Shown: positions 27,792 to 53,345 of the stretch, piece after piece
Position numbering within the stretch: the stretch's first letter is position 1
Layout of the letters: every line of letters begins with the position of its first letter
IMG/VR virus record: IMGVR_UViG_3300028027_000047
Location: 52,221 to 116,220 of that record
DNA: 64,000 bases
Reading direction: 5' to 3' (one strand)
Origin: a virus
Translations under genes and position numbers: made by a program
Notes under the pieces: generated by a model
Databases searched by the model: none
The model's input: the letters and a program-made list of their open reading frames with translations, nothing else
Told to the model about the DNA's origin: nothing

Positions 27792-27798
27792 TTTGAGT

Positions 27799-41002: not shown

Positions 41003-41374
41003 CTATTGACTGAATGGGTCTTCTTCTTCCCGCCAACCAAAGATTCGTTCTCTTACTGGTTCCTCCCGTTTTACTTTGTAAGAACGGGACGGCAACTTAA
41101 GATTAACTAAGTTGTTATCTTGCTGATATGCCTTGATACATTCATTCAGTTCCTTGGCTAATGCTAGACCTTCTGTATATGTACCTTGATTTGAATATAC
41201 ATCATACATCTTTGCCTGCTCTGATATTACTGATACAACCATTTCCATAATTCGGTCAATTGTATAGATTGGCTGTTCCGCCAGATATCGACCAAAGATA
41301 GTTGGATTGAACCAATGGTCATCCATTAGATTAACTAATGATTCTGCTACTTTGATTTCTTGTGTTTTACTCAT
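41003..41374 (-). CDS. hypothetical protein
   Basis: A 123-residue protein, helical first two thirds, then a charged tail. A GGCGGA site precedes the ATG and TACAAT lies further upstream. Last gene of the minus-strand block. No family recognised. Confidence 0.62.
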   Translation of the reverse strand: MSKTQEIKVAESLVNLMDDHWFNPTIFGRYLAEQPIYTIDRIMEMVVSVISEQAKMYDVYSNQGTYTEGLALAKELNECIKAYQQDNNLVNLKLPSRSYKVKREEPVRERIFGWREEEDPFSQ

Positions 41375-41407
41375 TCGTCCGCCTTCCGCCTAACTGTCAA
41401 TTGTACC

Positions 41408-41451
41408 AAAAATAAGAGAGGAGGTCAAGGACCAACGAAGCCCCGACCTCC
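41408..41451 (-). terminator. terminator after the Lsr2-tail-like gene
   Basis: Read on the minus strand: GGAGGTC/GACCTCC 7-bp stem with an 18-nt loop, then a T-rich run. Confidence 0.55.
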
Positions 41452-41461
41452 ACCCCTGGAA

Positions 41462-41611
41462 TTACTTAGCCTTATTGCTTGGTGTTTCTGCAGTAAATGT
41501 AACGCCCTTGGCTACAGCTTCCGCTAGAGCTACCTTGGCTGCTCCTGAGAAACGACCACGTACACCGACTGTAATGCCTTGCTGCTTTAGATATTCACGC
41601 TTTGTTGTCAT
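41462..41611 (-). CDS. small Lsr2-tail-like DNA-binding protein
   Basis: A 49-residue protein: YLKQQGITVGVRGRFSGAAK resembles the C-terminal DNA-binding part of actinobacterial Lsr2, where an R-G-R enters the minor groove of AT-rich DNA. It lacks Lsr2's N-terminal oligomerisation domain. A GAAAGGGG site precedes the ATG; the -10 is TATACT. It could compete with host Lsr2 on the AT-rich phage genome. Confidence 0.55.
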   Translation of the reverse strand: MTTKREYLKQQGITVGVRGRFSGAAKVALAEAVAKGVTFTAETPSNKAK

Positions 41612-41698
41612 TTGAATCCCCTTTCAAGAGATGTTTTATTTAGTATATCAGTTTTCAGGGGTATTGTAAATACCCCTCGTAAGACAAAATTTTTGCCC

Positions 41699-41839
41699 CT
41701 ACGAAAGATCTGCTTGTTCAATACGATCTTTAATTAATTTAGCAATGATGTTATGGGCCTCAATATTTTCTGTTTCGGATCCACCCCACAAAAGCTTTTG
41801 TGCTGTATTTAATTGATCATTCAGGTAGTTGTCACTCAT
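41699..41839 (-). CDS. small hypothetical protein
   Basis: A 46-residue helical protein overlapping the acidic-tail gene by 8 nt. No family recognised. Confidence 0.55.
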   Translation of the reverse strand: MSDNYLNDQLNTAQKLLWGGSETENIEAHNIIAKLIKDRIEQADLS

Positions 41840-42149
41840 CTTCATCTTCGTCTTCTTCCTCTTCCTCAAACATTGTGTCTACAATGTATTCACGATTCAT
41901 CATCCATTCAAGTACATCGTCCTGATGTTGTTCCGCCCCGTACTCTAGAGAGAAGCCCTGGCCCGCCTCCACGGCCTCGCAGAGGTGCCCCCACATCTCG
42001 TCTATGGTGCAGTTCTGCTTGTAGGTCTCATCCTCAAAGATGTTGTTAATTGTCGACCACGTCCACAGCCATACTAGTGACAGCCCTAGGTCCGTAGTGT
42101 CTAGAATCTTTAAACATTCGTTTAGTTTATCTTTGTCTTCAGGCTTCAT
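41832..42149 (-). CDS. hypothetical protein with acidic tail
   Basis: A 105-residue protein ending in about 14 consecutive Glu/Asp. Several Trp and Cys in the middle. The DNA at 41935-42015 is richer in GC than its surroundings. It overlaps neighbours at both ends. Confidence 0.6.
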   Translation of the reverse strand: MKPEDKDKLNECLKILDTTDLGLSLVWLWTWSTINNIFEDETYKQNCTIDEMWGHLCEAVEAGQGFSLEYGAEQHQDDVLEWMMNREYIVDTMFEEEEEDEDEDE

Positions 42150-42415
42150 AGTGTACGTGCTCCAATCGCAAATGATAATTGATAAGTTAATTGATACAGT
42201 TCGACTAGCATATCTAGGCGACCTTCACATTCTGTACGGACCATAGAGTCCATTGCCTCTTCTGATATCTCTTCTTGTTCTATTGCACTTGCTAGGTCCT
42301 GCTCAGCAATGAGCATTAGATTCTTTAGTTCTCCGTGCATAATGTCAAGGCCCGATACTCCAGCGTTGACCATACGTTGCAAATGGGGCGGGAGCCCAAT
42401 ATCTTCTGCATTCAT
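42146..42415 (-). CDS. hypothetical helical protein
   Basis: An 89-residue, mostly helical protein with an AACGAAAGGG site upstream, driven by the GTCAGT-N9 promoter at 42442-42462. No family recognised. Confidence 0.62.
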   Translation of the reverse strand: MNAEDIGLPPHLQRMVNAGVSGLDIMHGELKNLMLIAEQDLASAIEQEEISEEAMDSMVRTECEGRLDMLVELYQLTYQLSFAIGARTL

Positions 42416-42416
42416 T

Positions 42417-42596
42417 TTATACCCTTTCGTTAGTAGAATTCATTATATCAGTAGCCACTGACAATAAATGCCTGGTTGCTTCAATTTGTCCTGGGATATC
42501 AATTACATTGATAGATTCAGGATTCATTTCTAAATCTTGTTCAAGACTAATTAAATGAAGTTTCATATACTCCATAAACTGTGATGACTTAGTCAT
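42417..42596 (-). CDS. small hypothetical protein containing a downstream promoter
   Basis: A 59-residue protein behind an AGGAG site. Its last 15 codons contain the whole GTCAGT-N9-TATAAT promoter and AACGAAAGGG ribosome-binding site of the next gene, and its stop lies 1 nt before that ATG. Confidence 0.58.
   Translation of the reverse strand: MTKSSQFMEYMKLHLISLEQDLEMNPESINVIDIPGQIEATRHLLSVATDIMNSTNERV
42442..42462 (-). promoter_or_regulatory. GTCAGT-N9 promoter
   Basis: Read on the minus strand: GTCAGT, 9 nt, TATAAT. Drives the gene at 42146. Confidence 0.75.
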
Positions 42597-42705
42597 AGTA
42601 ATATTCTCCTGTCTCTCTATTGAAGTATCTTACCATAGAGCACTGACAAGTAAAAATTCCAGGGACATCTGAACACTCCCAGTAATGCTGACATTTAGCC
42701 CCCAT
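42589..42705 (-). CDS. small cysteine-containing protein
   Basis: A 38-residue protein with four Cys (two in C-x-C). It starts in a TAATG overlap with the gene before it and overlaps the next by 8 nt; it also spans the promoter at 42627. Confidence 0.5.
   Translation of the reverse strand: MGAKCQHYWECSDVPGIFTCQCSMVRYFNRETGEYYYD
42627..42647 (-). promoter_or_regulatory. GTCAGT-N9 promoter
   Basis: GTCAGT, 9 nt, TAAGAT on the minus strand; weaker -10. Drives the gene at 42417. Confidence 0.6.
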
Positions 42706-42881
42706 TAGTCAAAGTACCCTTCTGCCCATAGGCCTTGCAGGAAATCATTTGCTTTCAACAAACCTTCAACTAAAGGGTCTTTGTCTACTTGCTCAACATC
42801 TGATTTCATAATATAAAAAAGCTTTGCATCGTGTATAGCATTAGACATCTGATCGATATCTTCTTTTGTGTAGCCTAACAT
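42705..42881 (-). CDS. hypothetical protein
   Basis: A 58-residue acidic, helical protein. I start at ATG 42881 behind a perfect AGGAGG; an in-frame ATG 12 codons earlier lacks a site. No family recognised. Confidence 0.6.
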   Translation of the reverse strand: MLGYTKEDIDQMSNAIHDAKLFYIMKSDVEQVDKDPLVEGLLKANDFLQGLWAEGYFD

Positions 42882-43051
42882 TATGCCTCCTCTAATTCCC
42901 AAGACGTATCGGGCCAACCTAAATCATATTTGATAATGCTTTCAACTTGGCCAAGGTCGTCAAGATGTCCATTGATTTTCTCAATTGCTTCTTCTTCGCT
43001 ATTAGCGCCAACGGCGCCGTGTAATTTAATTACGAAGTTATAGTATGTCAT
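42881..43051 (-). CDS. hypothetical protein
   Basis: A 56-residue protein with alternating strand and helix. Its stop shares a base with the next start. No family recognised. Confidence 0.58.
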   Translation of the reverse strand: MTYYNFVIKLHGAVGANSEEEAIEKINGHLDDLGQVESIIKYDLGWPDTSWELEEA

Positions 43052-43284
43052 TCTGCGTTCTCATCCCATTGTAGGTAGTAATTATCTGTTGGACTTAAAT
43101 CGTGAAACTGATTGAACCTGCCTTTTAGATAATTGCTGTTAGACATATCGGCAACACACCAATCGGCATATAGTTGCCCTTCATCTAAATTAGAGTTCAT
43201 CCAATCTTCAACGAGTTGTTCTCCAATTTCAGAGAAGATTGCGTCAATCAACATTTCATTTTCATTTTCTAAGAAACTAGACAT
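43048..43284 (-). CDS. hypothetical acidic protein
   Basis: A 78-residue acidic protein, helical first half, overlapping the DUF1281-like gene by 8 nt. No family recognised. Confidence 0.6.
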   Translation of the reverse strand: MSSFLENENEMLIDAIFSEIGEQLVEDWMNSNLDEGQLYADWCVADMSNSNYLKGRFNQFHDLSPTDNYYLQWDENAE

Positions 43285-44068
43285 TTAGTGCCTCTTCCTG
43301 TGTGTAGGTTTTCAAAGGTAATAATACCATATGGGTCTGACATTCTTTCATAGCCACTTCATCCTGCCAAGAGCCCTCATTGCATTCTGAGCAGAATTCA
43401 CCGCAGTCATTCTCGCAATAGTCAATACAATCAAAAGACTGGCAAGCATAGCAACGGTTCTCATATGCCAATAGTTCTTTTACTTCACCACGGACAATCT
43501 CATATTCCCCACCCCAACCTGTTTCTTCCTCAAACTCTAATGTGAGCAGGCAGTTCGGAACAAGATTACTTAGTTTAGTTAAGATAGTTACAGCAGGTGA
43601 CCAAGCAGTCTCATACTTATATACAAGCCAGTTGTCATCACCTTCTGATTTGTATTCAAGTAATTCTGTATTAGAATACTTTTCCTCATCAGATACGGCT
43701 ACATCCCACTTAGTTCCCCAATTAGAGTTATTCCACGAATACCAATCCTTCTGAGTCTTAGCAAACTCAACAGACTTGCGGAACCAATCAGGGTCATTCT
43801 TGATATCTATGTCACCACGATTAGGTTGGCAGGCATATTCTTCATCAGTAATACCTTCATCCTTATATGAGTGGATATTAAAGAAAGCGAATACAGGATT
43901 ATTATATTCAACTAATTTAATTTTGGTGGGGAAACCCATAGATGAAATATCACCCATACCATATGTCTCTTGTGCTAATGTAAATGGAGCATTCAATCTA
44001 TCTTTAATCATATCTACCTCAGACTTAGGTCCTTGGATAGTTAATGTGTTGTAACACCAATTTGGCAT
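43277..44068 (-). CDS. DUF1281/YubB-like protein
   Basis: A 263-residue protein opening MPNWCYNTLTIQGP, the signature start of the DUF1281 (YubB, Api92-like ferredoxin-fold) family on plasmids and phages. The middle is Trp-rich; the C-terminus has a cysteine cluster (about six Cys near residues 220-245) that could bind zinc. I use ATG 44068 behind AACGAAAGG. Function of the family is unknown. Confidence 0.75.
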   Translation of the reverse strand: MPNWCYNTLTIQGPKSEVDMIKDRLNAPFTLAQETYGMGDISSMGFPTKIKLVEYNNPVFAFFNIHSYKDEGITDEEYACQPNRGDIDIKNDPDWFRKSVEFAKTQKDWYSWNNSNWGTKWDVAVSDEEKYSNTELLEYKSEGDDNWLVYKYETAWSPAVTILTKLSNLVPNCLLTLEFEEETGWGGEYEIVRGEVKELLAYENRCYACQSFDCIDYCENDCGEFCSECNEGSWQDEVAMKECQTHMVLLPLKTYTQEEALNV

Positions 44069-44096
44069 TTTATATCCTTTCGTTGATATGTTCCAA

Positions 44097-44117
44097 TTAT
44101 ACAATGGACCACTGACA
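44097..44117 (-). promoter_or_regulatory. GTCAGT-N9 promoter
   Basis: GTCAGT, 9 nt, TATAAT on the minus strand. Drives the DUF1281-like gene. Confidence 0.78.
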
Positions 44118-44162
44118 TTTGGAATAGATTTTGCCTGTGATACAGGCCACATTATTCAGCTT

Positions 44163-44178
44163 TGTGGTCAAGATCACA
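44163..44178. promoter_or_regulatory. CRP/GlxR-like palindrome
   Basis: TGTGG-N6-TCACA, one mismatch from TGTGA-N6-TCACA; 66 bp from the -10 box of the promoter at 44097. Confidence 0.5.
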
Positions 44179-44248
44179 AATTTTCAGGAGTTTTGCTATT
44201 GACCTCGTAAAAGAGATATGTTACCCTCGCCCTTGCGGGCAAAAAATT

Positions 44249-44282
44249 CCCCCTAGGCTCAGAGTTGAAGCTGACTAGGGGG
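44249..44282 (-). terminator. terminator-like hairpin
   Basis: 8-bp stem CCCCCTAG/CTAGGGGG, 18-nt loop, followed by AATTTTTT on the minus strand. Confidence 0.55.
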
Positions 44283-44380
44283 TAATGAATATGGCTGCTG
44301 ATTTCCAACGAAAGAAATAAACCGCTTTACTTAGCGCCTGGCCCGTAGACTAGTTAGGCGCACCATTTCATTTCTGTATT

Positions 44381-44400
44381 AAAACCAGGACCAAGGTCCT
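44381..44400 (-). terminator. terminator-like hairpin
   Basis: 6-bp stem AGGACC/GGTCCT with a 2-nt loop and TTTT on the minus strand, 8 nt after the stop of the next gene. Confidence 0.5.
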
Positions 44401-44407
44401 AGATTAA

Positions 44408-44776
44408 TTATACCACACTTAGTTGACTACAATATTTAGCAACAAATGCCTCAAGGCTTGTACTGAATACTACAGTCTGCAGGTCTTCTTCCATTAATGT
44501 GAAAGTTTTATTCTTCCAATCAATAATAGGGACCTTGTGCTCATTGTCGGCCAATTCATTAACGCTAATTCCCCAGCCTGTTTCGCTAGCCCATTCGTCA
44601 CCAATCATTTGACTAATAGTAATACGTGTTGCATATGCCTCGTCATTCCAACGTGGATGTGCAATCTGCACGGCGTCCGCTAAGTTCTCTAGCATTCGGT
44701 GCCCCGCCCAGTGACCGTATAGAAATACAATATTTTCCTTGGAATCTCTGAATCCAAAGTTTGCTCTGTCGCCCAT
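44408..44776 (-). CDS. hypothetical protein
   Basis: A 122-residue protein opening MGDRANFGFRDSKENIVFLYGHWAG. I know the opening from other phage proteins but no function. It ends near a terminator hairpin. Confidence 0.65.
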   Translation of the reverse strand: MGDRANFGFRDSKENIVFLYGHWAGHRMLENLADAVQIAHPRWNDEAYATRITISQMIGDEWASETGWGISVNELADNEHKVPIIDWKNKTFTLMEEDLQTVVFSTSLEAFVAKYCSQLSVV

Positions 44777-44777
44777 T

Positions 44778-44963
44778 TTATTCCGCCTTTGTTAGTTGGT
44801 CTTGCTCGTAGTTTAGTAATTGTACCATTTCTTCGGCCCAGTCCACAAGAGATTCGCCCTGTGAATTTTTATGATGTCCACAAAAATAAAGAGACATTGC
44901 ATCTTTCTTTGCTTCCCACATAGCTTGGGCTGCACATTGATCACACTTAAGCCATTCAGCCAT
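44778..44963 (-). CDS. DUF7455-like zinc protein
   Basis: A 61-residue protein with CDQCAAQAMWEA and LYFCGHHKN, the pattern of an actinobacterial zinc-binding family (DUF7455-like). A GTG one codon earlier is possible. It is overlapped by the next gene's stop. Confidence 0.68.
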   Translation of the reverse strand: MAEWLKCDQCAAQAMWEAKKDAMSLYFCGHHKNSQGESLVDWAEEMVQLLNYEQDQLTKAE

Positions 44964-45109
44964 CACAGTGTTCCACCTTCAATCATTTCTGAAAGACGGT
45001 CAAGGATCCAAGTATCGATGTCAGCGATATCAATCTCTGATAACTTTTCCATCATCTCTTCACGAGCAAACTTATACCCGTCTTGAAATCCATCTTTATA
45101 GTCTGACAT
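44963..45109 (-). CDS. small acidic protein
   Basis: A 48-residue acidic helical protein with an AGGAGA site. Its TGA overlaps the next ATG. No family recognised. Confidence 0.58.
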   Translation of the reverse strand: MSDYKDGFQDGYKFAREEMMEKLSEIDIADIDTWILDRLSEMIEGGTL

Positions 45110-45117
45110 TTTATCTC

Positions 45118-45321
45118 CTAGTATCCCGTCGCTTCTTTGTCTGACCAGTATGATTCTTTTAAATTATACTTATCACGAATACGACTAACTTTCTCAATAC
45201 TACCAGTTCCAACATTGAATGTCAACGGTGGCATAAATTCAGGGTCAAGCCCAGTAATTTGTGCATCCCAATAAGCCATCTCAAGAGATAGCCTATCGGG
45301 AGCGGTCAACTCAAAGTACAT
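45118..45321 (-). CDS. hypothetical protein
   Basis: A 67-residue protein with mixed strands and helices, starting on the last base of the previous stop. No family recognised. Confidence 0.6.
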   Translation of the reverse strand: MYFELTAPDRLSLEMAYWDAQITGLDPEFMPPLTFNVGTGSIEKVSRIRDKYNLKESYWSDKEATGY

Positions 45322-45977
45322 TAGTTCTCACGCACATTACATACTTCTTGGTCATTGATTTCAATGTTACCGTTATGTGAATCAGCAAAGATTGCATCTG
45401 TAATTTCTGACTCAAGGTCTAAGTCATAATCGTTTTCAAGAATGTTATATGAATATGTTCCGCTAACTTCAATAGATGCAGACCATTCAACTTCTTTAAT
45501 AAGTTCAATACCAAGCGCCTCAGCGATTTCACGCAATGTGTCTTGGTCTTGTGAGTCTGCATATGCTTCGCAGATAATTTCTTTAGCAGAATCAATCTTG
45601 CTATTTAGAACGCCGACAGTCTTCTGAGATTGGCGTCCATTGTGTAGGTCCCACTCAAGACTTGTAATCTTGTCAGTTGCATATTCTGCATCTGAGAATC
45701 CGCGGATAACTTTGTAGGTTACCAATAGATTAGAGTTATATGACTCAGGGATTTGTGTTGTTGTTGGTTCCATTTTTTCCTCTTTCGTTTGGGTTATAGG
45801 AGCAATTGTAGCATTGACCACTGACACCAAGGTGGTCTTTCGACCACACGGGCACGTGAGTTCTGTCACACCTGATGGAAATCCAAACCCGTCAGATGAT
45901 GTTAATTCAATTAGGCAGTCACATTCATCTGGGTCACAGACAAATGTATATTTACTTGATACTAGTTCGTTGGTCAT
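45321..45977 (-). CDS. zinc-motif protein with internal in-frame promoter and second start
   Basis: A 218-residue frame. Residues 1-55 carry a zinc-like cluster (C-x4-C-x-C and C-P-C). Residues 69-218 are a separate acidic domain. A full GTCAGT-N9 promoter (45805-45825) and an AACGAAAGAGG site lie in frame just before Met69 (45773), so a 150-residue product is likely made too. The first ATG (45977) is leaderless, 7 nt after TATAAT. It overlaps the next gene by 1 nt. Confidence 0.65.
   Translation of the reverse strand: MTNELVSSKYTFVCDPDECDCLIELTSSDGFGFPSGVTELTCPCGRKTTLVSVVNATIAPITQTKEEKMEPTTTQIPESYNSNLLVTYKVIRGFSDAEYATDKITSLEWDLHNGRQSQKTVGVLNSKIDSAKEIICEAYADSQDQDTLREIAEALGIELIKEVEWSASIEVSGTYSYNILENDYDLDLESEITDAIFADSHNGNIEINDQEVCNVREN
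45805..45825 (-). promoter_or_regulatory. GTCAGT-N9 promoter inside a coding frame
   Basis: GTCAGT, 9 nt, TACAAT on the minus strand, in frame within the gene above. Confidence 0.72.
45855..45870. promoter_or_regulatory. CRP/GlxR-like palindrome
   Basis: CGTGA-N6-TCACA, one mismatch; exactly 50 bp from the -10 box at 45805. Confidence 0.45.
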
Positions 45978-45984
45978 GATGAGA

Positions 45985-46005
45985 ATTATACACGAGCCCA
46001 CTGAC
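45985..46005 (-). promoter_or_regulatory. GTCAGT-N9 promoter, leaderless
   Basis: GTCAGT, 9 nt, TATAAT on the minus strand; the ATG at 45977 is 7 nt from the box. Confidence 0.78.
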
Positions 46006-46034
46006 ATTTACAATAGCTTTCAGGGCTTTTTTTA

Positions 46035-46050
46035 TGTGACACGTAACACA
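46035..46050. promoter_or_regulatory. CRP/GlxR-like palindrome
   Basis: TGTGA-N6-ACACA, one mismatch; exactly 50 bp from the -10 box at 45985. It overlaps a CGTAA element. Confidence 0.45.
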
Positions 46051-46082
46051 CTTTTAATTCCCTTAATATTGCGGGCGCTTTG

Positions 46083-46156
46083 CGATCTGTAACGGACTTG
46101 AACCGTCGACCTCTACCGTGACAGGGTAGCGCTCTAACCAACTGAGCTAACAGACC
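46083..46156 (-). tRNA. tRNA-Asp (GTC)
   Basis: A 74-nt cloverleaf on the minus strand: acceptor GGTCTGT/ACAGATC, anticodon loop CTGTCAC, T-arm GACGG/CCGTT. No encoded CCA. Confidence 0.88.
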
Positions 46157-46167
46157 AAGAAAAATTG

Positions 46168-46190
46168 TGAGCAGTTTTAAATCTTGCTCA
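46168..46190 (-). terminator. terminator-like hairpin between DUF932-like gene and tRNA-Asp
   Basis: 6-bp stem TGAGCA/TGCTCA, then CAATTTTT on the minus strand. The plus strand also has a T-rich run, so it may act both ways. Confidence 0.5.
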
Positions 46191-46211
46191 GGATTTTTAT
46201 TTATTTTTTTT

Positions 46212-47216
46212 TTAGAAAGTTGCAACCATTCGATACAACTTATTTTTTTCTGCGGTTAGAACTGGGTCAAACCCTGATGCACCCGCCATAAGTGTTTCGC
46301 CATTGCCACGACCTGAACGATAATAATCAAGGCGCTCAGTTAGTGCATTGAACGCACCCCACTTTGTTCCCTTGATTGTAGCGTTAGTAGGTGAGTTATG
46401 ATAAAGGTCATCAAGCAGAACAACTTTGTTCTCCCACTTTTTGATTGCACCCTTAGCATCTTTTTCTGGCTTAGGATAGATTGTCTGAATCAACTTAGAG
46501 AATTCAGCATCGGTGATTGCTTGTGAGTAAAGTGCTTTTGCTTGAACTTCGAATTCATCGAAATATCCAAGAGCAAGCCCAAGAGTTTCACGAGCAACTT
46601 GAATACGACCTTCAACAGATTGCGTGTGGCGAATCTTGAAAGATTGCTTAGCATTCTTCATTGCAAGGTTTAGCGTATTTTGGCATACAACACGAACAGG
46701 TGTAACGGCTGCCTGAACAGCAACAGAACCATCGTGTGATGTCCATACGATTAGATATAACTTTGTCTCATCATTGGCGCCTTGTGGGTCAAGAACCATT
46801 GTGCGAGGAATATCAACAGTGCCGAATACAACTTTACCCTTTTTTAATGAGCCAGCAGATTCCCAACGGCAGTCAGCGTTAGCATCGTGAATTGCATCAG
46901 CGAATGCAAATAGTTCCTCATTCTGCACAGGCTTGTAACGCTTGCCAACAGTAGCAAGAACATCAGTTCCGCCGTTGAATGGGTTATCACGAATGACAAG
47001 AGATGCAGTTGAAACATCATTCCAAGATTCTGGAATGTGTTCGGTGATTGGAGATAAGCGAACATTCCAATTTGCTAACTTTGCCTCTTCAAGCATTGTT
47101 GCGGTTGTAACTTCTTCATCTTGTGTGAAGATGCGATTTGCTAGATTGTGCCAAGCAGGTGCGCCACGGAGAGCGAAAGCAACTTCGCCATTTTCCATTT
47201 CTAGATTGTGAGCCAT
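46212..47216 (-). CDS. DUF932 / phage-plasmid-like protein (TIGR03299 type)
   Basis: A 334-residue protein: MAHNLEMENGEVAFALRGAP...WHNL is the usual opening of the DUF932 family found on phages and plasmids; further matches are TPVRVVCQNTL and FNALTERLDYYR near the C-terminus. Function unknown, often linked to replication. I use ATG 47216 behind AACGAAAGGT; an upstream start would run through the promoter. Confidence 0.78.
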   Translation of the reverse strand: MAHNLEMENGEVAFALRGAPAWHNLANRIFTQDEEVTTATMLEEAKLANWNVRLSPITEHIPESWNDVSTASLVIRDNPFNGGTDVLATVGKRYKPVQNEELFAFADAIHDANADCRWESAGSLKKGKVVFGTVDIPRTMVLDPQGANDETKLYLIVWTSHDGSVAVQAAVTPVRVVCQNTLNLAMKNAKQSFKIRHTQSVEGRIQVARETLGLALGYFDEFEVQAKALYSQAITDAEFSKLIQTIYPKPEKDAKGAIKKWENKVVLLDDLYHNSPTNATIKGTKWGAFNALTERLDYYRSGRGNGETLMAGASGFDPVLTAEKNKLYRMVATF

Positions 47217-47247
47217 ATATTTTTTACCTTTCGTTTGATTAGTTGTA

Positions 47248-47268
47248 AGTATAACAGGTGGCACTGAC
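47248..47268 (-). promoter_or_regulatory. GTCAGT-N9 promoter
   Basis: GTCAGT, 9 nt, TATACT on the minus strand. Drives the DUF932-like gene. Confidence 0.78.
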
Positions 47269-47307
47269 ATTGTCTAGATTAGATAGTCATTTGTCCGAAT
47301 TGTGCGG

Positions 47308-47323
47308 TGTGATCATTCTCACA
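47308..47323. promoter_or_regulatory. CRP/GlxR consensus palindrome
   Basis: Exact TGTGA-N6-TCACA; exactly 60 bp from the -10 box at 47248. Confidence 0.62.
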
Positions 47324-47331
47324 AACTTTCA

Positions 47332-47369
47332 GGGTTATCCACAAGCACTCGTAAACCTGTGGATAACCC
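47332..47369. repeat. 12-bp inverted repeat with two DnaA-box 9-mers
   Basis: GGGTTATCCACA and TGTGGATAACCC, 14-nt loop. Each arm holds an exact DnaA box (47335-47343, 47358-47366). The loop contains the CGTAA element. Confidence 0.6.
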
Positions 47370-47395
47370 CCCAAAAGCGGGGGCCGAGCTGGAGA

Positions 47396-47656
47396 TTAAA
47401 TCCCCACCTCTACCTTTTTAGCATTGCTAATTAGATTTTTATTAAACTCAACTGTGGTCTCATCAAGAAACATCGCAGTTGTTTTTTTCTTTTTTACATT
47501 ATCAAAAACATAAGCGTTAATCTTTCCGCTAAAGTTTCTGATGTTGCTGAATACTAATTCAGTTAAGTATTCTTTATCAACACCTTGATCTGAATAAATC
47601 GTGATGTCATTTGCTTTGTTTGCATCGTAGATTTCTACTCTGAAACGATTTGCCAT
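47396..47656 (-). CDS. hypothetical basic protein
   Basis: An 86-residue protein with a Lys run (VKKKKTT). Its leader contains a TCC(TTCG)GGGA hairpin. No promoter of the N9 class precedes it, so it is probably co-transcribed with the gene at 47780. No family recognised. Confidence 0.6.
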   Translation of the reverse strand: MANRFRVEIYDANKANDITIYSDQGVDKEYLTELVFSNIRNFSGKINAYVFDNVKKKKTTAMFLDETTVEFNKNLISNAKKVEVGI

Positions 47657-47779
47657 TGTATTACCTTTGTTAGTAGTTCCCCGAAGGAGAGCAGTTTGGC
47701 GACTTACTCAGGTCGTTCGCAATTTAGCGTTATGCGAGAACGATTGGGTTCAGGACTTTAGTTCTGCCCCCCAAATTAT

Positions 47780-48202
47780 TTAGAGATAACGAGCAACCGC
47801 TTGATAAGTTGATGTGGAAACTGTTTCCTCATCTGTCATCTTTAGAATACGGATTGCGTTTTCCATCTCCTCTTTCATCTCACGATAAGTGTGCTGATGA
47901 ATTACCTCAAAGTCCTTTTCAGGTTCTGTTGGGAAAGAAGTTTCCTCTGTGATGATGTCAAAATCAACATTGAGTGTCTTGTTCCAAGAGCGATAGTTTG
48001 TGCGAAGGTTCTCTGCTTTTGAGAAATTAGCAATAGCCCACTTGCCGATTTCTTTTTGCCAAGCCTTGTAAGCCTTTTGATACTTTGCTTCGTTTGCTTC
48101 TTGTGCCTGATAGTCTTTAGTTAGTTGTGCTAACTTAGTTTCTAGTGCCTTGATTACCTTTGGTGTTGCGATTTTTACTGAGATTGCTTTTCCTCTAGCC
48201 AT
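47780..48202 (-). CDS. hypothetical helical protein
   Basis: A 140-residue charged coiled-coil-like protein with an AACGAAAGAGG site. No family recognised. A structured 120-nt spacer separates it from the next gene. Confidence 0.62.
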   Translation of the reverse strand: MARGKAISVKIATPKVIKALETKLAQLTKDYQAQEANEAKYQKAYKAWQKEIGKWAIANFSKAENLRTNYRSWNKTLNVDFDIITEETSFPTEPEKDFEVIHQHTYREMKEEMENAIRILKMTDEETVSTSTYQAVARYL

Positions 48203-48240
48203 TTATTTTCCTCTTTCGTTGGTTGGTTGTTGTTAGTTGT

Positions 48241-48261
48241 AGTATAGCAGGGGGGTCTGAC
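48241..48261 (-). promoter_or_regulatory. GTCAGA-N9 promoter
   Basis: GTCAGA, 9 nt, TATACT on the minus strand. No CRP-like site upstream. Confidence 0.7.
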
Positions 48262-48372
48262 ATTTCCCCCGAAGGGGGGAGAGTTCTTACTTACGACATT
48301 GGACTAGATACTCTCCTAAACTGTCCCTGTTTCGTGGCTTAGCACCCGATTATGGTGTATGCCTCCGTCTTA

Positions 48373-48552
48373 TTAGCCAAGTAGTGTCTTGGCTGATACT
48401 GAAGTCCAGCGAGTTTCCCTGCTAGGTAGTTCCAGTAGCACACGCACCGAGCCAGATGCCTGTGGGTGTATCTCTTTGATAACACCTGTCTTTTTTGACT
48501 TTAGGCTGGTGAATAAATCGCCGACCTGATAGAGTTTTCCTTCTATTGTCAT
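48373..48552 (-). CDS. hypothetical protein, possibly SH3-like
   Basis: A 59-residue protein of short strands (MTIEGKLYQVGDLFTSLKSK) that could form a small beta barrel. Driven by the promoter at 48580. No family recognised. Confidence 0.58.
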   Translation of the reverse strand: MTIEGKLYQVGDLFTSLKSKKTGVIKEIHPQASGSVRVLLELPSRETRWTSVSAKTLLG

Positions 48553-48579
48553 TTTTGCCTCTTTTCTTTGTTAGGTAGT

Positions 48580-48600
48580 ATTGTAGCATTGGGGTCTGAC
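48580..48600 (-). promoter_or_regulatory. GTCAGA-N9 promoter
   Basis: GTCAGA, 9 nt, TACAAT with a TGC extension on the minus strand. Confidence 0.7.
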
Positions 48601-48639
48601 ATTAGTCTAGCCCTATCTCATTATGTGAGAATGTTATTG

Positions 48640-48655
48640 TGTGACCTTAGTCACT
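48640..48655. promoter_or_regulatory. CRP/GlxR-like palindrome
   Basis: TGTGA-N6-TCACT, one mismatch; exactly 60 bp from the -10 box at 48580. Confidence 0.5.
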
Positions 48656-48910
48656 TTCTTGTAGCCAAGCGTGTAAGTGATGCTGTTCTACTATTGCGTG
48701 TGCGGGTGCAAACTTATCTCCTCGATAAGATACGCCTTCAGGCATTTCGATCAATTTATCATACTCATCTGCCCAGTATGCGTCAATAGCCTCGATGCAA
48801 GGTTGCACCATAGAAAGTGGAACGGGTGGATAGTGATTACCCTGTAAGTGAATAGAGATACCTTGCTCTAATCCTAAGTCTGATAAATCTAACGCTGTTG
48901 TGTATCCCAT
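48647..48910 (-). CDS. hypothetical protein, paralogue of the one at 33045
   Basis: An 87-residue protein: HLQGNHYPPVPLSMVQPCIE, EMPEGVSYRG and HAWLQESD match the plus-strand protein at 33045 block for block. It starts on the last base of the previous stop. Function unknown. Confidence 0.62.
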   Translation of the reverse strand: MGYTTALDLSDLGLEQGISIHLQGNHYPPVPLSMVQPCIEAIDAYWADEYDKLIEMPEGVSYRGDKFAPAHAIVEQHHLHAWLQESD

Positions 48911-49116
48911 TAGTTAGCCACCTTTAGAATTGCGTATGAGCCGTTTTCGTTGATGTGGTCAATTACTGGCTGAATTGCAGATACCAATAAATCTTTTAGC
49001 ATTGACTCTAGCATAGCAATTTGTGATTGTTCATCTAATTGTAAGAATTGTTTTGCGATAGGATGTGTTTCGTCAAACTCGGTTACGAATTTGAGTGAGT
49101 GTTCTACTGATGTCAT
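48910..49116 (-). CDS. hypothetical protein
   Basis: A 68-residue helical protein with an AACGAAAGGT site, driven by the promoter at 49145. No family recognised. Confidence 0.62.
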   Translation of the reverse strand: MTSVEHSLKFVTEFDETHPIAKQFLQLDEQSQIAMLESMLKDLLVSAIQPVIDHINENGSYAILKVAN

Positions 49117-49144
49117 TTGTTACCTTTCGTTGTTGGATAAGAGT

Positions 49145-49165
49145 ATTATAGCATTGGCCACTGAC
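49145..49165 (-). promoter_or_regulatory. GTCAGT-N9 promoter
   Basis: GTCAGT, 9 nt, TATAAT with a TGC extension on the minus strand. Confidence 0.8.
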
Positions 49166-49199
49166 ATTACCTAATCCATTATGGGCGTGTCGCAGCTTT

Positions 49200-49215
49200 T
49201 GTGATAATACTCACA
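49200..49215. promoter_or_regulatory. CRP/GlxR consensus palindrome
   Basis: Exact TGTGA-N6-TCACA within the longer palindrome TTGTGA-N6-TCACAA; 55 bp from the -10 box at 49145. Confidence 0.62.
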
Positions 49216-49226
49216 ATTCCAGGGGT

Positions 49227-49256
49227 TGTGGATAACCCCCGTAAGCCTGTGGATAA
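49227..49256. promoter_or_regulatory. two DnaA-box 9-mers
   Basis: TGTGGATAA at 49227-49235 and 49248-49256, each followed by CCCCC or CCCC; a CGTAA element lies between them. Confidence 0.5.
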
Positions 49257-49295
49257 CCCCCCACAATATTGCGGGCCAACTTGACTTTGTCAAGT

Positions 49296-49305
49296 CGACA
49301 CGCCG
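49296..49305. repeat. CGACACGCC dispersed repeat (one of eight)
   Basis: Copies at 49183-49192 (inverse), 49296-49305, 50471-50480, 51941-51950, 51984-51993, 52033-52042, 52901-52910 and 53170-53179 (inverse). All are in gene-free spacers of this block; the core GACACGCC is shared by all. Confidence 0.75.
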
Positions 49306-49452
49306 TTACCAACGATTAGGCAAATCATCTTTTCCGTCATTGTCGTTATCAAATTTTGCACCATTCCACATGTACACTGCTAGCACAATTGGTGAGAATA
49401 AGAATGCAATTAATAAAATTCCAATTAAGGATCCGAGAATGTCATACATCAT
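49306..49452 (-). CDS. small membrane protein with EF-hand-like tail
   Basis: A 48-residue protein: one hydrophobic segment (about 6-28) and a FDNDNDGKDDLP tail like a calcium-binding loop. It overlaps the GP88-like stop by 4 nt. Similar membrane-plus-Asp-loop proteins are at 20268 and 60401. Confidence 0.58.
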   Translation of the reverse strand: MMYDILGSLIGILLIAFLFSPIVLAVYMWNGAKFDNDNDGKDDLPNRW

Positions 49453-50168
49453 TTTTTACTCGCAGAAAATCTAATATCCGCTTTACCGTATACGCATAGG
49501 CCACAAGATACGCAGGCGGACCCATTGCTAGAGATAAGCGGAATACTCTTCATATTCTCAGGACACTTAGCGCCAGGCTTGCCAGTCAATTCTTTCATTG
49601 TGTTTTCCGTTGCAGAGAATGTCTTTCCTAGGTATGCAAGGCGGACCTTAGAATTAGTTTTCAAATCGAATGCTATTTCTTTATTCTCATCATCGGTAGA
49701 ATAGTATAAAGATAGATTAGATACATCCTTAAGAATAAGCGCTGCAGACTTTACTCGTGTATAAACCCAAAATTGAACATCGGGATGATTAGCAATAACA
49801 GTCTTCCAGGCATAAGTATAAACATCATTAAAAAAATCTCCGTCCCAATGGATACGGAATAACTTAGGCGCCTCTTTCTTTTCACAGTCAGCAATAAATT
49901 CAACAATCATCTCATCCAATAGAATAAGCATTGTGTCCATATCTGCATTACGTAGGAGCTCCCAATTGTGTAACAAATTAACTTTAACGCTAGGGAATAC
50001 CTTTTCTAATTTTCCTGCATAGCAGACACTCTCGCAAATAGACGTTGCGCCAGGACAAGAATAATTCTTTCCAGCAGGTAATCCGAACGTGTTGGCAATT
50101 GCTGCCTGCTTTCCATTTTTTGTGACAAGGTTAGCGACCTTTCTATCATTAGAACGTTTTAATTTCAT
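49449..50168 (-). CDS. GP88-like protein
   Basis: A 239-residue protein with clustered cysteines (CPGATSICESVCYAG near residue 39 and CVSCGLC near 225) and RIHWDGDFFNDVYTYAWK, the pattern of the actinophage GP88 family, whose function is unknown. Fe-S or zinc binding is likely. I start at ATG 50168, 7 nt after a TATAAT, because upstream ATGs lie inside the promoter. Confidence 0.72.
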   Translation of the reverse strand: MKLKRSNDRKVANLVTKNGKQAAIANTFGLPAGKNYSCPGATSICESVCYAGKLEKVFPSVKVNLLHNWELLRNADMDTMLILLDEMIVEFIADCEKKEAPKLFRIHWDGDFFNDVYTYAWKTVIANHPDVQFWVYTRVKSAALILKDVSNLSLYYSTDDENKEIAFDLKTNSKVRLAYLGKTFSATENTMKELTGKPGAKCPENMKSIPLISSNGSACVSCGLCVYGKADIRFSASKK

Positions 50169-50175
50169 AGGGGTA

Positions 50176-50196
50176 ATTATAGCGGTGGCCTCTGAC
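50176..50196 (-). promoter_or_regulatory. GTCAGA-N9 promoter, leaderless
   Basis: GTCAGA, 9 nt, TATAAT on the minus strand, 7 nt from the ATG of the GP88-like gene. Confidence 0.75.
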
Positions 50197-50199
50197 ATA

Positions 50200-50409
50200 T
50201 TAGTAATCCTCATCCATACCGTGGCCTGCAGACGCTAGGGCGTCAGAATCAGACCAGCCAATAGTTTCAAAGAATTCCATTTCCTCAGACGCATAGCATT
50301 CAGCGCAGATATAATCATCGCCATAAATTTCATATTCTGAATCATTGTCAAAAGTTTCTTGAGCGCCACAAATTTCATAGTTCAAGCAAGATACTGTAAA
50401 TAGTTCCAT
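50200..50409 (-). CDS. acidic zinc-motif protein
   Basis: A 69-residue acidic protein with cysteines spaced C-x5-C and C-x2-C (ICAEC). AACGAAAGAGG site upstream; promoter at 50440. No family recognised. Confidence 0.6.
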   Translation of the reverse strand: MELFTVSCLNYEICGAQETFDNDSEYEIYGDDYICAECYASEEMEFFETIGWSDSDALASAGHGMDEDY

Positions 50410-50439
50410 AGTGGACCTCTTTCGTTGGTAGATACGGAA

Positions 50440-50460
50440 ATTATAGCAGAATGGACTGAC
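50440..50460 (-). promoter_or_regulatory. GTCAGT-N9 promoter
   Basis: GTCAGT, 9 nt, TATAAT on the minus strand. Confidence 0.78.
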
Positions 50461-50503
50461 ATATCAAAATCGACACGCCGTAAAATTTCAGGCAATTCGG
50501 ACA

Positions 50504-50519
50504 TGTGTCGTAATTCACA
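50504..50519. promoter_or_regulatory. CRP/GlxR-like palindrome
   Basis: TGTGT-N6-TCACA, one mismatch, inside ATGTG/CACAT; 64 bp from the -10 box at 50440. Confidence 0.45.
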
Positions 50520-50560
50520 TGAAGCCCCCACAAAAGAGCGGGCAGCTGCATATTTATGCG

Positions 50561-50692
50561 CTACTCTGAATATTTATTTTTATGTTTGATCTTGCGTGTG
50601 TATTTTTTTTTATTGCGAACAGGTTGCGCCGCATTACTGCGGCGCAATTCCTGAATGCGTTTTACTTTATCTTGAAGTGAATTTAGGAACAT
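50561..50692 (-). CDS. small basic protein
   Basis: A 43-residue Arg/Lys-rich protein overlapping the previous gene by 26 nt. Its DNA holds a perfect 10-bp hairpin, TTGCGCCGCA/TGCGGCGCAA (50624-50647). Probably nucleic-acid binding. Confidence 0.5.
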   Translation of the reverse strand: MFLNSLQDKVKRIQELRRSNAAQPVRNKKKYTRKIKHKNKYSE

Positions 50693-50858
50693 TGTAATTA
50701 CTCGCTTCGTGAAATCTTGCTACATCAAATCGCTCATTATCTTTCGCAAACATTTCAGCGAAATCATTTACGATTTTAGAAAATAAAGCGGGGTGCGTTT
50801 TATCGCTTGCATACTTTAGAATTTCTGCCGTTGCTACATAGTCTTTTCGTGTCATCAT
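50667..50858 (-). CDS. hypothetical protein
   Basis: A 63-residue helical protein. Its ATG overlaps the previous TGA and lies behind a CGAAAGG site. No family recognised. Confidence 0.6.
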   Translation of the reverse strand: MMTRKDYVATAEILKYASDKTHPALFSKIVNDFAEMFAKDNERFDVARFHEASNYNVPKFTSR

Positions 50859-51061
50859 TTTGTTACGACCTTTCGTCCTTCACGATAGAAAACTCGTGTG
50901 TGCATTTTGCCAGTTGGCGTCATTAGATTTACAGTTGAGTATTCGTTAGCAAATCCCCAATCGGTGAAAAGGAAAAAGTTTTCCCACGCACCAAATTCGT
51001 TTTCGTATTCTGCTGACCAATGCGGAGCATTTGAGTCATAAGCGCAAGTCAATTTATACAT
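50855..51061 (-). CDS. hypothetical aromatic-rich protein
   Basis: A 68-residue beta-rich protein with many Phe, Tyr and Trp. AACGAAAGGG site; promoter at 51106. No family recognised. Confidence 0.6.
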   Translation of the reverse strand: MYKLTCAYDSNAPHWSAEYENEFGAWENFFLFTDWGFANEYSTVNLMTPTGKMHTRVFYREGRKVVTK

Positions 51062-51105
51062 TAGTTTCCCTTTCGTTAGTTACGCATTTACATTGTGTTA
51101 TTTGT

Positions 51106-51126
51106 ATTGTATCAGTTAGCACTGAC
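51106..51126 (-). promoter_or_regulatory. GTCAGT-N9 promoter
   Basis: GTCAGT, 9 nt, TACAAT on the minus strand. Confidence 0.72.
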
Positions 51127-51178
51127 ACAACGGCAAGGGTATCGCAATTATCGCAAATCCACATCCCCGCTATTTGGC

Positions 51179-51304
51179 TCATTCAAAAGCCCCCTCATTC
51201 AGTAGCCCTAATTCAATGTTGAACATTTCATCGGGTGTTGCTTCGGATAAATCTACCCAGCCCGCACCTTCATCATCCATACGGAAAATCTCAATGTATC
51301 CCAT
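51179..51304 (-). CDS. small acidic protein
   Basis: A 41-residue acidic protein. TAATAATG at its start follows the stop of the gene at 51307. No family recognised. Confidence 0.55.
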   Translation of the reverse strand: MGYIEIFRMDDEGAGWVDLSEATPDEMFNIELGLLNEGAFE

Positions 51305-51306
51305 TA

Positions 51307-51474
51307 TTATTCACACTCGCATTTCTTATCGTAGTCAAATTCGCAATAGTAGCAACCCATTTGCTCGCCGTGTTCTTTACACACATAAACAAATTGGCTT
51401 TCATCACAATGAAATTTCATTTCATCTTTTATGAAATAGAATTCGGTTTCGTCAATGTATTTTGTATCTAACAT
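51307..51474 (-). CDS. small multi-cysteine protein
   Basis: A 55-residue protein with Cys at about 23, 32, 41, 44, 52 and 54 plus a His, likely a zinc site. It starts on the last base of the previous stop. Confidence 0.58.
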   Translation of the reverse strand: MLDTKYIDETEFYFIKDEMKFHCDESQFVYVCKEHGEQMGCYYCEFDYDKKCECE

Positions 51475-51674
51475 TAGTCACCTACCTTTACCGCTAAATA
51501 ACGATAAGTATCGCTAAAAGAATTAGAGGGGCGAACCTGAACACGATAAGTATCGCAATCGGCATACCAAACCTTAGAGGTTTTTTCTGCGTCAATTATT
51601 TCGCCCTTTACTGAGCGAGAGTAATACATTTTCCCAATAAGTAGGGACTCTACGGAATAAACATTTGCTGACAT
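51474..51674 (-). CDS. hypothetical protein
   Basis: A 66-residue beta-rich protein with an AACGAAAGGT site encoded in the previous gene. No family recognised. Confidence 0.6.
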   Translation of the reverse strand: MSANVYSVESLLIGKMYYSRSVKGEIIDAEKTSKVWYADCDTYRVQVRPSNSFSDTYRYLAVKVGD

Positions 51675-51793
51675 TAGTTGTCACCTTTCGTTGTTGTTGA
51701 TACGGACATTGTAGCAGATAGCACTGACAAGGCTTCTGCCTTACTTGCTTCACGGGTGGCGGTGATGTGCGCCTTGAATTCATCTAGGTTCAT
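51674..51793 (-). CDS. small protein containing a downstream promoter
   Basis: A 39-residue protein. Its last 20 codons contain the full GTCAGT-N9-TACAAT promoter and AACGAAAGGT site of the next gene, whose ATG overlaps its stop (TAATG). Confidence 0.5.
   Translation of the reverse strand: MNLDEFKAHITATREASKAEALSVLSATMSVSTTTKGDN
51708..51728 (-). promoter_or_regulatory. GTCAGT-N9 promoter inside a coding frame
   Basis: GTCAGT, 9 nt, TACAAT on the minus strand. Confidence 0.72.
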
Positions 51794-51826: not shown

Positions 51827-51847
51827 ATTATACATTAGGGCACTGAC
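51827..51847 (-). promoter_or_regulatory. GTCAGT-N9 promoter
   Basis: GTCAGT, 9 nt, TATAAT on the minus strand. Drives the gene at 51674. Confidence 0.75.
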
Positions 51848-51897
51848 ATTTCTCTACCTACTAGCCAGTAAGTCCACATAGTAAGACGCTCAACCTA

Positions 51898-51913
51898 TGT
51901 GATACTCATCACA
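51898..51913. promoter_or_regulatory. CRP/GlxR consensus palindrome
   Basis: Exact TGTGA-N6-TCACA; 71 bp from the -10 box at 51827. Confidence 0.6.
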
Positions 51914-52005
51914 CAAATATGTCCGATATGTCTGTCAAATCGACACGCCGTAGAATTCCAGGGCTTCTGTAACAATCTCGTAACGACACGCCCGACCCCG
52001 TGCCT

Positions 52006-52347: not shown

Positions 52348-52499
52348 TACTTATTCTTCTTTCTCTTGTAAATCTTATAGGCGGTTACTAGTAAGGCGGT
52401 GATGATTATAGTGTGCCAAGGTAAGTAGATAGCCCCTAAGAAACTATCAAACTCTAAGCCGTATTCGTTTAGTGCTAATTCTAATCCGTTGCTAATCAT
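52347..52499 (-). CDS. small membrane protein
   Basis: A 50-residue protein with a hydrophobic segment near residues 22-42 and a Lys/Arg-rich tail. No family recognised. Confidence 0.55.
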   Translation of the reverse strand: MISNGLELALNEYGLEFDSFLGAIYLPWHTIIITALLVTAYKIYKRKKNK

Positions 52500-52502
52500 T
52501 TA

Positions 52503-52685
52503 TTATGCCTCCCAAGTAAGTGTGAATAGTTTTGCTAATTCCTCATCATCAACATCATCAAAATCATCAACGGGAGGTTGTTCCTCATCTACCTCATCAA
52601 GGTAGGCGTATGCGTCTGCGACATCTGATTGAATAGAGGCGTATTTATCTATTGAGTTAGTTTGGTATGAGTATGCGTATGACAT
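52503..52685 (-). CDS. small acidic protein
   Basis: A 60-residue Asp/Glu/Tyr-rich protein with a run VDDFDDVDDEE. CGAAAGG site lies in the previous gene. No family recognised. Confidence 0.58.
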   Translation of the reverse strand: MSYAYSYQTNSIDKYASIQSDVADAYAYLDEVDEEQPPVDDFDDVDDEELAKLFTLTWEA

Positions 52686-52834
52686 TACATTGAAACCTTT
52701 CGTAGGTGTGCTACTACATTACTAGAAATTGTCTGTAGTTCTTTTACTGTCTTGTTCATTTCTTCTGCGCTAGTAGCGGTGAAATCCACGCCTAGTAGTT
52801 GAGCGCCGTCCCATAGTGAGTAAGTGATAGTCAT
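52685..52834 (-). CDS. hypothetical protein
   Basis: A 49-residue helical protein with an AACGAAAGA site; promoter at 52870. Its stop overlaps the next start (TAATG). Confidence 0.58.
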   Translation of the reverse strand: MTITYSLWDGAQLLGVDFTATSAEEMNKTVKELQTISSNVVAHLRKVSM

Positions 52835-52869
52835 TATCTGTTCTTCTTTCGTTAGTAGTTATAGTAGGA

Positions 52870-52890
52870 ATTGTAGCGTATCGGGCTGAC
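52870..52890 (-). promoter_or_regulatory. GTCAGC-N9 promoter
   Basis: GTCAGC, 9 nt, TACAAT on the minus strand. Confidence 0.68.
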
Positions 52891-52929
52891 ATTATCAACA
52901 CGACACGCCGTAGAGCGGAGAGCCTAGCG

Positions 52930-52945
52930 TGTGAGTTGCCTCACA
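52930..52945. promoter_or_regulatory. CRP/GlxR consensus palindrome
   Basis: Exact TGTGA-N6-TCACA; exactly 60 bp from the -10 box at 52870. It overlaps the stop codon of the next gene. Confidence 0.6.
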
Positions 52946-53096
52946 GGCAGTTGATACACTCGCAACCCTTAGAGCGGATAAGGTAGGCAAGGATTTCCTT
53001 GCGTGTGTAAGCGTTTAGCCCATAAGAGGATTTTACGCCACCATTGTGGAAATCGTGCACGATAGTGCTAAATAGTGTTTCGGTTAGTTGAGTCAT
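52941..53096 (-). CDS. small protein with C-terminal cysteines
   Basis: A 51-residue protein ending C-x-C-x2-C. CGAAAGGGG site; promoter at 53132. It is the first gene of the minus-strand block. No family recognised. Confidence 0.6.
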   Translation of the reverse strand: MTQLTETLFSTIVHDFHNGGVKSSYGLNAYTRKEILAYLIRSKGCECINCL

Positions 53097-53131
53097 TTTG
53101 ACCCCTTTCGTTTGTTTTTCTTTATACCTTT

Positions 53132-53152
53132 ATCATAGCAGGGGGGACTGAC
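53132..53152 (-). promoter_or_regulatory. GTCAGT-N9 promoter
   Basis: GTCAGT, 9 nt, TATGAT on the minus strand. Confidence 0.7.
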
Positions 53153-53201
53153 ATTTAGAGGTGTTTCTCGGGCGTGTCGCAAATAAATCTTAGAAAAACC
53201 C

Positions 53202-53217
53202 TGTGAGTTGCGCCACA
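53202..53217. promoter_or_regulatory. CRP/GlxR-like palindrome
   Basis: TGTGA-N6-CCACA, one mismatch; exactly 70 bp from the -10 box at 53132. Confidence 0.48.
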
Positions 53218-53345
53218 TTCACGCTCATTATGTGCGGTCTATCCTAAATGTCCGAATTTTTCTGTAGTGTGTATCGTACAAGATAAAAATATATTAACAT
53301 TTTTTCAAATTTGAAATAACATTAACCCTGGTATAATTATTTAAT

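Follow-up and report, generated by a model that had tools for sequence, protein, structure and literature searches.

The 64,000-base window analysed here, the final 64 kb of the 116,220-base virus record IMGVR_UViG_3300028027_000047 (IMG/VR), contains a minus-strand gene block in which promoters of a single class are accompanied by palindromic sites (dyads) of the form TGTGA-N6-TCACA, which, with their spacer of 6, have the form of the CRP/GlxR site class. Each promoter combines an extended -10 element (TGnTATAAT) with a TGTCAG box exactly 10 base pairs (bp) upstream: on the minus strand between positions 41003 and 53500, a -10 box lies at exactly 10 bp for 17 of the 20 TGTCAG hexamers, and for none at the other spacings from 5 to 18 bp. 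The rest of the record holds no TGTCAG with a -10 box at 10 bp, the class being confined to this block. Ten of the 17 promoters (TGTCAG-N10-TAnnnT) carry a dyad and are given first below, followed by the seven that do not.

44096..44117, minus strand: promoter TGTCAG-N10-TATAAT, DUF1281_C gene (frame 43277-44152)
45805..45826, minus strand: promoter TGTCAG-N10-TACAAT
45985..46006, minus strand: promoter TGTCAG-N10-TATAAT
47248..47269, minus strand: promoter TGTCAG-N10-TATACT, DUF932 gene
48580..48601, minus strand: promoter TGTCAG-N10-TACAAT
49145..49166, minus strand: promoter TGTCAG-N10-TATAAT
50440..50461, minus strand: promoter TGTCAG-N10-TATAAT
51827..51848, minus strand: promoter TGTCAG-N10-TATAAT
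52870..52891, minus strand: promoter TGTCAG-N10-TACAAT
53132..53153, minus strand: promoter TGTCAG-N10-TATGAT
42442..51729, minus strand: the seven promoters of this class that lack a dyad (first base of TGTCAG at 51729, 51127, 50197, 48262, 43342, 42648 and 42463)

The block holds four exact dyads and seven with one mismatch, 11 in total, and every one of them lies 26.5-57.5 bp upstream of such a promoter (here and throughout, distances run from the dyad centre to the T of TGTCAG).

44136..44151, minus strand: dyad, one mismatch, 26.5 bp upstream of TGTCAG 44117, added to the first list
44163..44178, minus strand: dyad, one mismatch, 53.5 bp from TGTCAG 44117, off phase
45855..45870, minus strand: dyad, one mismatch, 36.5 bp from TGTCAG 45826
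46035..46050, minus strand: dyad, one mismatch, 36.5 bp from TGTCAG 46006
47308..47323, minus strand: dyad, exact, 46.5 bp from TGTCAG 47269
48640..48655, minus strand: dyad, one mismatch, 46.5 bp from TGTCAG 48601
49200..49215, minus strand: dyad, exact, 41.5 bp from TGTCAG 49166, half a turn off
50504..50519, minus strand: dyad, one mismatch, 50.5 bp from TGTCAG 50461, off phase
51898..51913, minus strand: dyad, exact, 57.5 bp from TGTCAG 51848
52930..52945, minus strand: dyad, exact, 46.5 bp from TGTCAG 52891
53202..53217, minus strand: dyad, one mismatch, 56.5 bp from TGTCAG 53153

The original prediction had listed ten of these dyads, with every coordinate and the split into four exact and six one-mismatch sites correct, and had placed each upstream of a minus-strand promoter in one block, which holds for all ten and for the eleventh (44136, absent from that list and sharing its promoter with 44163). 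Its spacings were right up to a constant offset (recomputed as 36.5 twice, 46.5 three times, 56.5 and 57.5, with exceptions at 41.5, 50.5 and 53.5).

Both the number and the placement of the dyads depart from expectation. With up to one mismatch allowed, the whole window contains 13 sites, compared with 2.54 expected from dinucleotide shuffles (a count of 13 was reached in 0 of 100 shuffles); between positions 44000 and 53300, the four exact and 11 total sites compare with shuffle means of 0 exact and 0.41 total (100 shuffles, maximum 3). Matches scattered across the genome, named beforehand as evidence against a regulatory role, did not occur: the four exact dyads of the block are the only ones in the 116-kb record, and three one-mismatch dyads lie outside the block (at 27401 and 37118 of the window and at 2356 of L005). 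The sites are therefore concentrated in one region and at promoters, as in phages that use the host regulator CtrA, and we conclude that they form a real, selected regulatory array.

The promoters themselves constitute an unusual, phage-specific class, defined by a fixed 10-bp interval between the TGTCAG box and an extended -10 element. Across 1307 promoters in 297 clusters (including loci chosen by their dyads), the profile reads AAA-TGTCAG-T(C/G)(C/G)C, followed by the extended -10 element, with A frequent at the predicted start. A control pattern with spacer 11 was found in 21 stretches, versus at least 119 for spacer 10. We rejected TGTCAG-N10-TATAAT as a host promoter class because the 101 genomes examined of the candidate host family considered below contain only 3 matches.

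The helical-step spacing proposed in the original prediction is strong among relatives and not significant in the window alone (Rayleigh p ~0.11 for ten sites and ~0.05 for eleven), so that the significance of the phasing is supplied by the relatives. A relative of the DUF932 protein (46212-47207) is encoded by 310 IMG/VR stretches, from which the best 80 of 310 (92-100% identity) were used, giving, with the window and the more distant contig L208, 82 loci selected through the protein and irrespective of the dyad. In these loci, 656 of 1107 promoters carry a dyad, and 559 of 697 sites fall within 1 bp of 26.5, 36.5, 46.5, 56.5 or 66.5 bp. The in-phase excess persisted when similar spacers were collapsed at successive levels (clusters in phase versus expectation: 119 of 138 versus 41.4, 72 of 85 versus 25.5, 46 of 55 versus 16.4 and 32 of 41 versus 12.2), with counts as high as these reached in 0 of 5000 simulations, and the picture was unchanged in a wider set that included at least 119 stretches chosen by pattern, though that choice makes the set biased. 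Related phages did not lose the spacing, an outcome that had been named in advance as a possible refutation; the dyads are set in helical register ahead of the core promoter, as are the activator sites of class I promoters. The dyad itself is equally specific: in the 80 relatives, 446 exact sites have spacer 6, whereas every other spacer length between 0 and 12 gave 0-16, and five kinds of scrambled half-sites yielded 0-1 exact sites each.

These data bear on the simplest alternative, namely that the pattern arose by chance or reflects duplicated copies of one ancestral promoter. The non-significant phasing of the window alone would fit such an origin, and the relatives share ancestry, so that raw counts are not independent; however, the 41 dissimilar clusters retain the excess (32 in phase versus 12.2 expected), spacer 6 is unique and orthologous promoters change their spacing by whole turns, and we consider this explanation extremely improbable.

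The last of these points emerged when 1158 promoters (from protein-found and pattern-found loci) were sorted into 97 gene groups, within which orthologous genes shift their dyad by whole helical turns. Differences between recurrent distances inside gene groups numbered 33 at 9-11 bp and 13 at 19-21 bp, versus 17 at 2-8 bp and 10 at 12-18 bp, with a further 19 pairs differing by 1 bp. For example, in the group of promoter 52891 the dyad lies at 36.5 bp in 14 of 32 cases and at 46.5 bp in 12 of 32; in that of 53153 it lies at 46.5 bp in 14 of 48 and at 56.5 bp in 21 of 48, but at 41.5 bp in 7 of 48; and in that of 48601 it lies at 46.5 bp in 51 of 80, at 45.5 bp in 12 of 80 and at 26.5 bp in 8 of 80. 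Phase is also retained in L208 (72% protein identity), where 5 of 7 sites have such a promoter within 100 bp (at distances of 56.5, 35.5, 56.5, 35.5 and 66.5 bp); L208, a phage contig of 109,918 bases, comes from a bin that bears the label of a cyanobacterium and in which it is probably misplaced. Presence of the dyad is itself specific to the promoter: it is kept at promoters 47269 (84 of 86) and 49166 (40 of 40), and is never or rarely present at 48262 (0 of 87), 42463 (0 of 37) and 43342 (2 of 48). Hence the suggestion that a whole gene block is tied to the regulator was too wide, since only 10 of the 17 promoters carry a dyad and several orthologous promoters (nearly) always lack one, although the clustering at block promoters stands.

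With regard to what may bind these sites, the GlxR consensus is TGTGANNTANNTCACA, with TA at its centre (PMC4254451). Among 199 site clusters, the inner bases, which were free of the search pattern, favour T (56%) followed by A (50%) in the centre, and central TA occurs in 28.3% of the clusters, in agreement with the centre of that consensus. The CRP/GlxR identity given to the motif in the original prediction thus gains a consensus match that includes the site centre, and the array has good odds, judging by its sequence, of being CRP-type. The dyad is also used as an activator site by GlxR in Corynebacterium glutamicum (PMC4254451, PMC7999487).

A phage-encoded Crp was rejected as the binder, as 16 phage records (G000 and 15 related ones) yielded neither an HTH_Crp_2 nor a cNMP_binding domain, control genomes being positive. 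A host protein is the likely, putative binder on this sequence evidence. The phage carries a WhiB gene (22481-22792), and WhiB is a mark of actinophages (PMC10202952; PMC6802176), which points to an actinobacterial host. Among 601 phage records, the best matches of the DUF932 protein are Streptomyces phages (51% identity), including NootNoot (Samistivirus, Stanwilliamsviridae). A system common to the Streptomyces phages NootNoot and EGole (Samistivirus, ~50% DUF932 identity) was rejected: the first 14,000 bases of each contain 1 and 0 sites, respectively, with at most one mismatch, and no promoters of the TGTCAG class.

A candidate host family was taken from genome bin G016, in which a 4.7-kb contig carries a 53%-identical relative and one exact dyad. 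In this family, a cNMP_binding protein is present in 79 of 101 genomes (78 above the cut-off), and the helix GASRETVNKALAD is present in all 30 of the 30 Crp/GlxR orthologue loci fetched, identical to that of the aligned CRP/FNR structure 3d0s. Co-binning was insufficient to name the host, as the genome collection yielded 2 loci (one of them the cyanobacterium-labelled bin) and 2 of 296 candidate-family genomes had a DUF932 relative (56% and 33% identity). Across the whole phylum, an exact site is present in 141 of 246 genomes.

Taken together, we consider it somewhat more probable than its negation that the dyads are sites for a host dimer of the CRP/GlxR family that activates phage-specific promoters from upstream. 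The dyads would be bound, on one face of the helix upstream of the TGTCAG promoter, by a dimer of the CRP/FNR family, most probably the Crp/GlxR of the host, which would recruit RNA polymerase via the C-terminal domain of the polymerase alpha subunit, as at class I CRP sites; dyad-bearing promoters, unlike the others, would thereby respond to the cyclic AMP (cAMP) or nutrient state of the host. We infer the identity of the binder, activation as opposed to repression, and any role of cAMP; a CRP/GlxR signature at whole-turn distances nevertheless suggests that the virus times the genes of the block by host state.

Several observations weigh against this reading, many of them from the candidate family, whose 101 genomes hold 8 exact sites in 6 genomes (one on the relative's own phage contig) versus 23 for the reversed control. 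One-mismatch sites in 15 of its genomes show no excess (217 versus 229 in the control), and 38 sites in three genomes lie within long open frames (12 of 12, 8 of 9 and 18 of 18); of two exact sites inspected, one falls between genes and the other within a short frame at the end of a contig. Autoregulation of crp through a consensus site was rejected, with a site near the crp start in 1 of 30 loci, and bin G016 itself gave no cNMP_binding match. This lack of motif excess on the chromosomes may mean that the phage host lies elsewhere, or that the host Crp uses few or weak sites. The sites themselves show a second TA peak two bases on from the centre (23.6% versus 28.3%), and an off-phase minority recurs among the 697 sites, at 41.5 bp (59), 53.5-54.5 bp (50) and 49.5-50.5 bp (21). 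Moreover, -10 strength does not differ between promoters with and without dyads, which are equally strong, so that the weak core expected of an activated promoter is not seen.

The geometry adds a further difficulty. In Escherichia coli, class I CRP sites are centred at -61.5, -71.5 and -82.5. With the -10 box set at -12 to -7, the dyad centres here fall near -54.5, -64.5, -74.5, -84.5 and -94.5, that is, ~3 bp off the E. coli register for a start predicted from the -10 box. Unrelated phage promoters of the TTGACA type, identified by an IMG/VR scan for dyads before TTGACA-N17-TATAAT (28 stretches with 29 sites, some stretches being mutual copies), have 17 of 29 dyad centres at -59.5 to -62.5 or -69.5 to -72.5. 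Two stretches from that scan, L094 and L332, contain many dyads each. Single CRP-type sites before phage promoters are thus not rare, and it is the array that stands out.

Part of this evidence would also fit a phage-encoded dimeric regulator that was missed by Pfam and that binds the dyads and coordinates the block, as activator or repressor. On its own chromosomes the candidate family makes no use of the motif; the TGTCAG box, a second phage-specific element, is absent as a class from the same genomes (3 in 101), making at least one phage factor likely; and many phage proteins still have no family assignment. Conversely, the dyad matches the actinobacterial GlxR/Crp consensus almost perfectly, including its central TA, the 16 phage records yielded no CRP-type domain, and WhiB is the only known regulator among the phage proteins scanned individually. 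The dyad also precedes a TGTCGG promoter in L357 and a TTGACA-type promoter in L399, and is therefore not tied to the TGTCAG system. On balance, we regard a phage regulator as a credible but rather unlikely binder.

Alternatively, Crp/GlxR bound at the dyads could repress or delay the block, acting as a metabolic brake. CRP represses pir of phage T1 (PMC6737242), and a brake would be compatible with core promoters that are equally strong with and without dyads and with sites that lie half a turn off. However, the phased sites lie 26-67 bp upstream of the TGTCAG box, with no overlap of the core promoter, and whole-turn shifts are typical of polymerase contact on one helix face; repression therefore seems to us improbable, and activation by a host CRP/GlxR-family dimer remains our preferred reading.

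The relationship between dyad and promoter was further informed by sister phages. TGTCAG promoters were present in 66 further stretches. At least three occur in 40 of them, and among these 40 the dyad is present upstream in 29 and absent in 11. Loci L373, L375 and L381 (14, 13 and 8 promoters, respectively) have no TGTGA dyad, and six of their promoters are instead preceded by TAAC-N6-GTTA, five at 41.5 bp and one at 40.5 bp. A scan for TAAC-N6-GTTA returned 20 stretches; together with the sister loci, 13 sites in 11 loci (L373, L375, L381, L425, L428-L432, L438 and L440) lie at 41.5 bp before TGTCAG promoters in sister phages that lack TGTGA dyads, the other sites being single cases and one sequence found in six contigs at 56.5 bp. 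Along with the promoters of L357 and L399, these sister phages indicate that dyad and TGTCAG box are separable parts, and the upstream dyad module looks swappable. A broader and more tentative view, which we put forward as possible and hold to be short of probable, is that widespread large freshwater actinophages run this block from a fixed TGTCAG-N10-TATAAT promoter plus a plug-in dyad for a host regulator on one helix face, with CRP/GlxR coupling the block to host cAMP in one lineage and another regulator acting through TAAC-N6-GTTA in the sister lineage, perhaps with a change of host.

Elements of this arrangement have counterparts in well-studied systems. E. coli class I CRP promoters also have activator sites upstream at ~10-bp steps; the register here is ~3 bp away, and a TGTCAG box 10 bp from the -10 element replaces the usual -35 hexamer. 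The MotA-dependent middle promoters of phage T4 likewise combine an extended -10 element with a phage-specific box that replaces the -35 element, although box and spacing differ. Phage use of host regulators is already known, both from CtrA-site arrays in alphaproteobacterial phages, described as 'lytic deferment' (PMC9437464), and from CRP at T1 pir (PMC6737242). As here, the CtrA arrays place many strong sites for a host master regulator at promoters of one part of the phage genome, but regulator and hosts differ, and binding and regulation were proved by experiment there, whereas our evidence is sequence-based; the accessible part of that report makes no mention of whole-turn phasing on a fixed phage promoter class or of a site swap in a sister lineage, the former observed and the latter proposed here (PMC9437464). 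T1 pir resembles our proposal in that host CRP acts on a phage promoter and ties infection to host metabolism, but it involves one promoter, repression and an assay in E. coli, compared with predicted sites at 10 of 17 block promoters here (PMC6737242). GlxR of C. glutamicum shares the same dyad (TGTGANNTANNTCACA, or TGTGA-N6-TCACA), with binding demonstrated at bacterial chromosomal genes, in contrast to sites predicted in a phage (PMC4254451, PMC7999487). A literature search, outside which most subscription papers lay, found no paper on phased CRP/GlxR arrays in phage promoters.

If activation by a host CRP/GlxR-family dimer is correct, an abundant group of freshwater phages would sense the nutrient state of the host by way of a regulator that belongs to that host, acting at many promoters simultaneously. 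The natural whole-turn shifts and swapped dyads would also provide a ready experiment on upstream activators at a promoter without a normal -35 box, and would give a clue to the host of uncultured phages.

Other features of the block and the phage were also recorded. The sequence GGCGTGTCG is present on either strand in 8 copies (at 49184, 49296, 50471, 51941, 51984, 52033, 52901 and 53171), within the block and nowhere else in the record, and its core GCGTGTCG is present too in the sister loci L373, L375 and L381 and in L208 and L209. DnaA-box-like TTATCCACA sequences occur in pairs near two of the dyads (47335 and 47358; 49227 and 49248). The motif TGTCCGA (CGGACA) lies near dyads here, and CGGACA is abundant at the start of two Streptomyces phages (38 copies in L088 and 33 in L089, counting both strands of the first 14 kb). 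The phage also encodes a fatty acid desaturase (53346-54245), two sulfotransferase-like proteins (56487-57440 and 27793-28605) and an HSP20-like protein (16595-17011).

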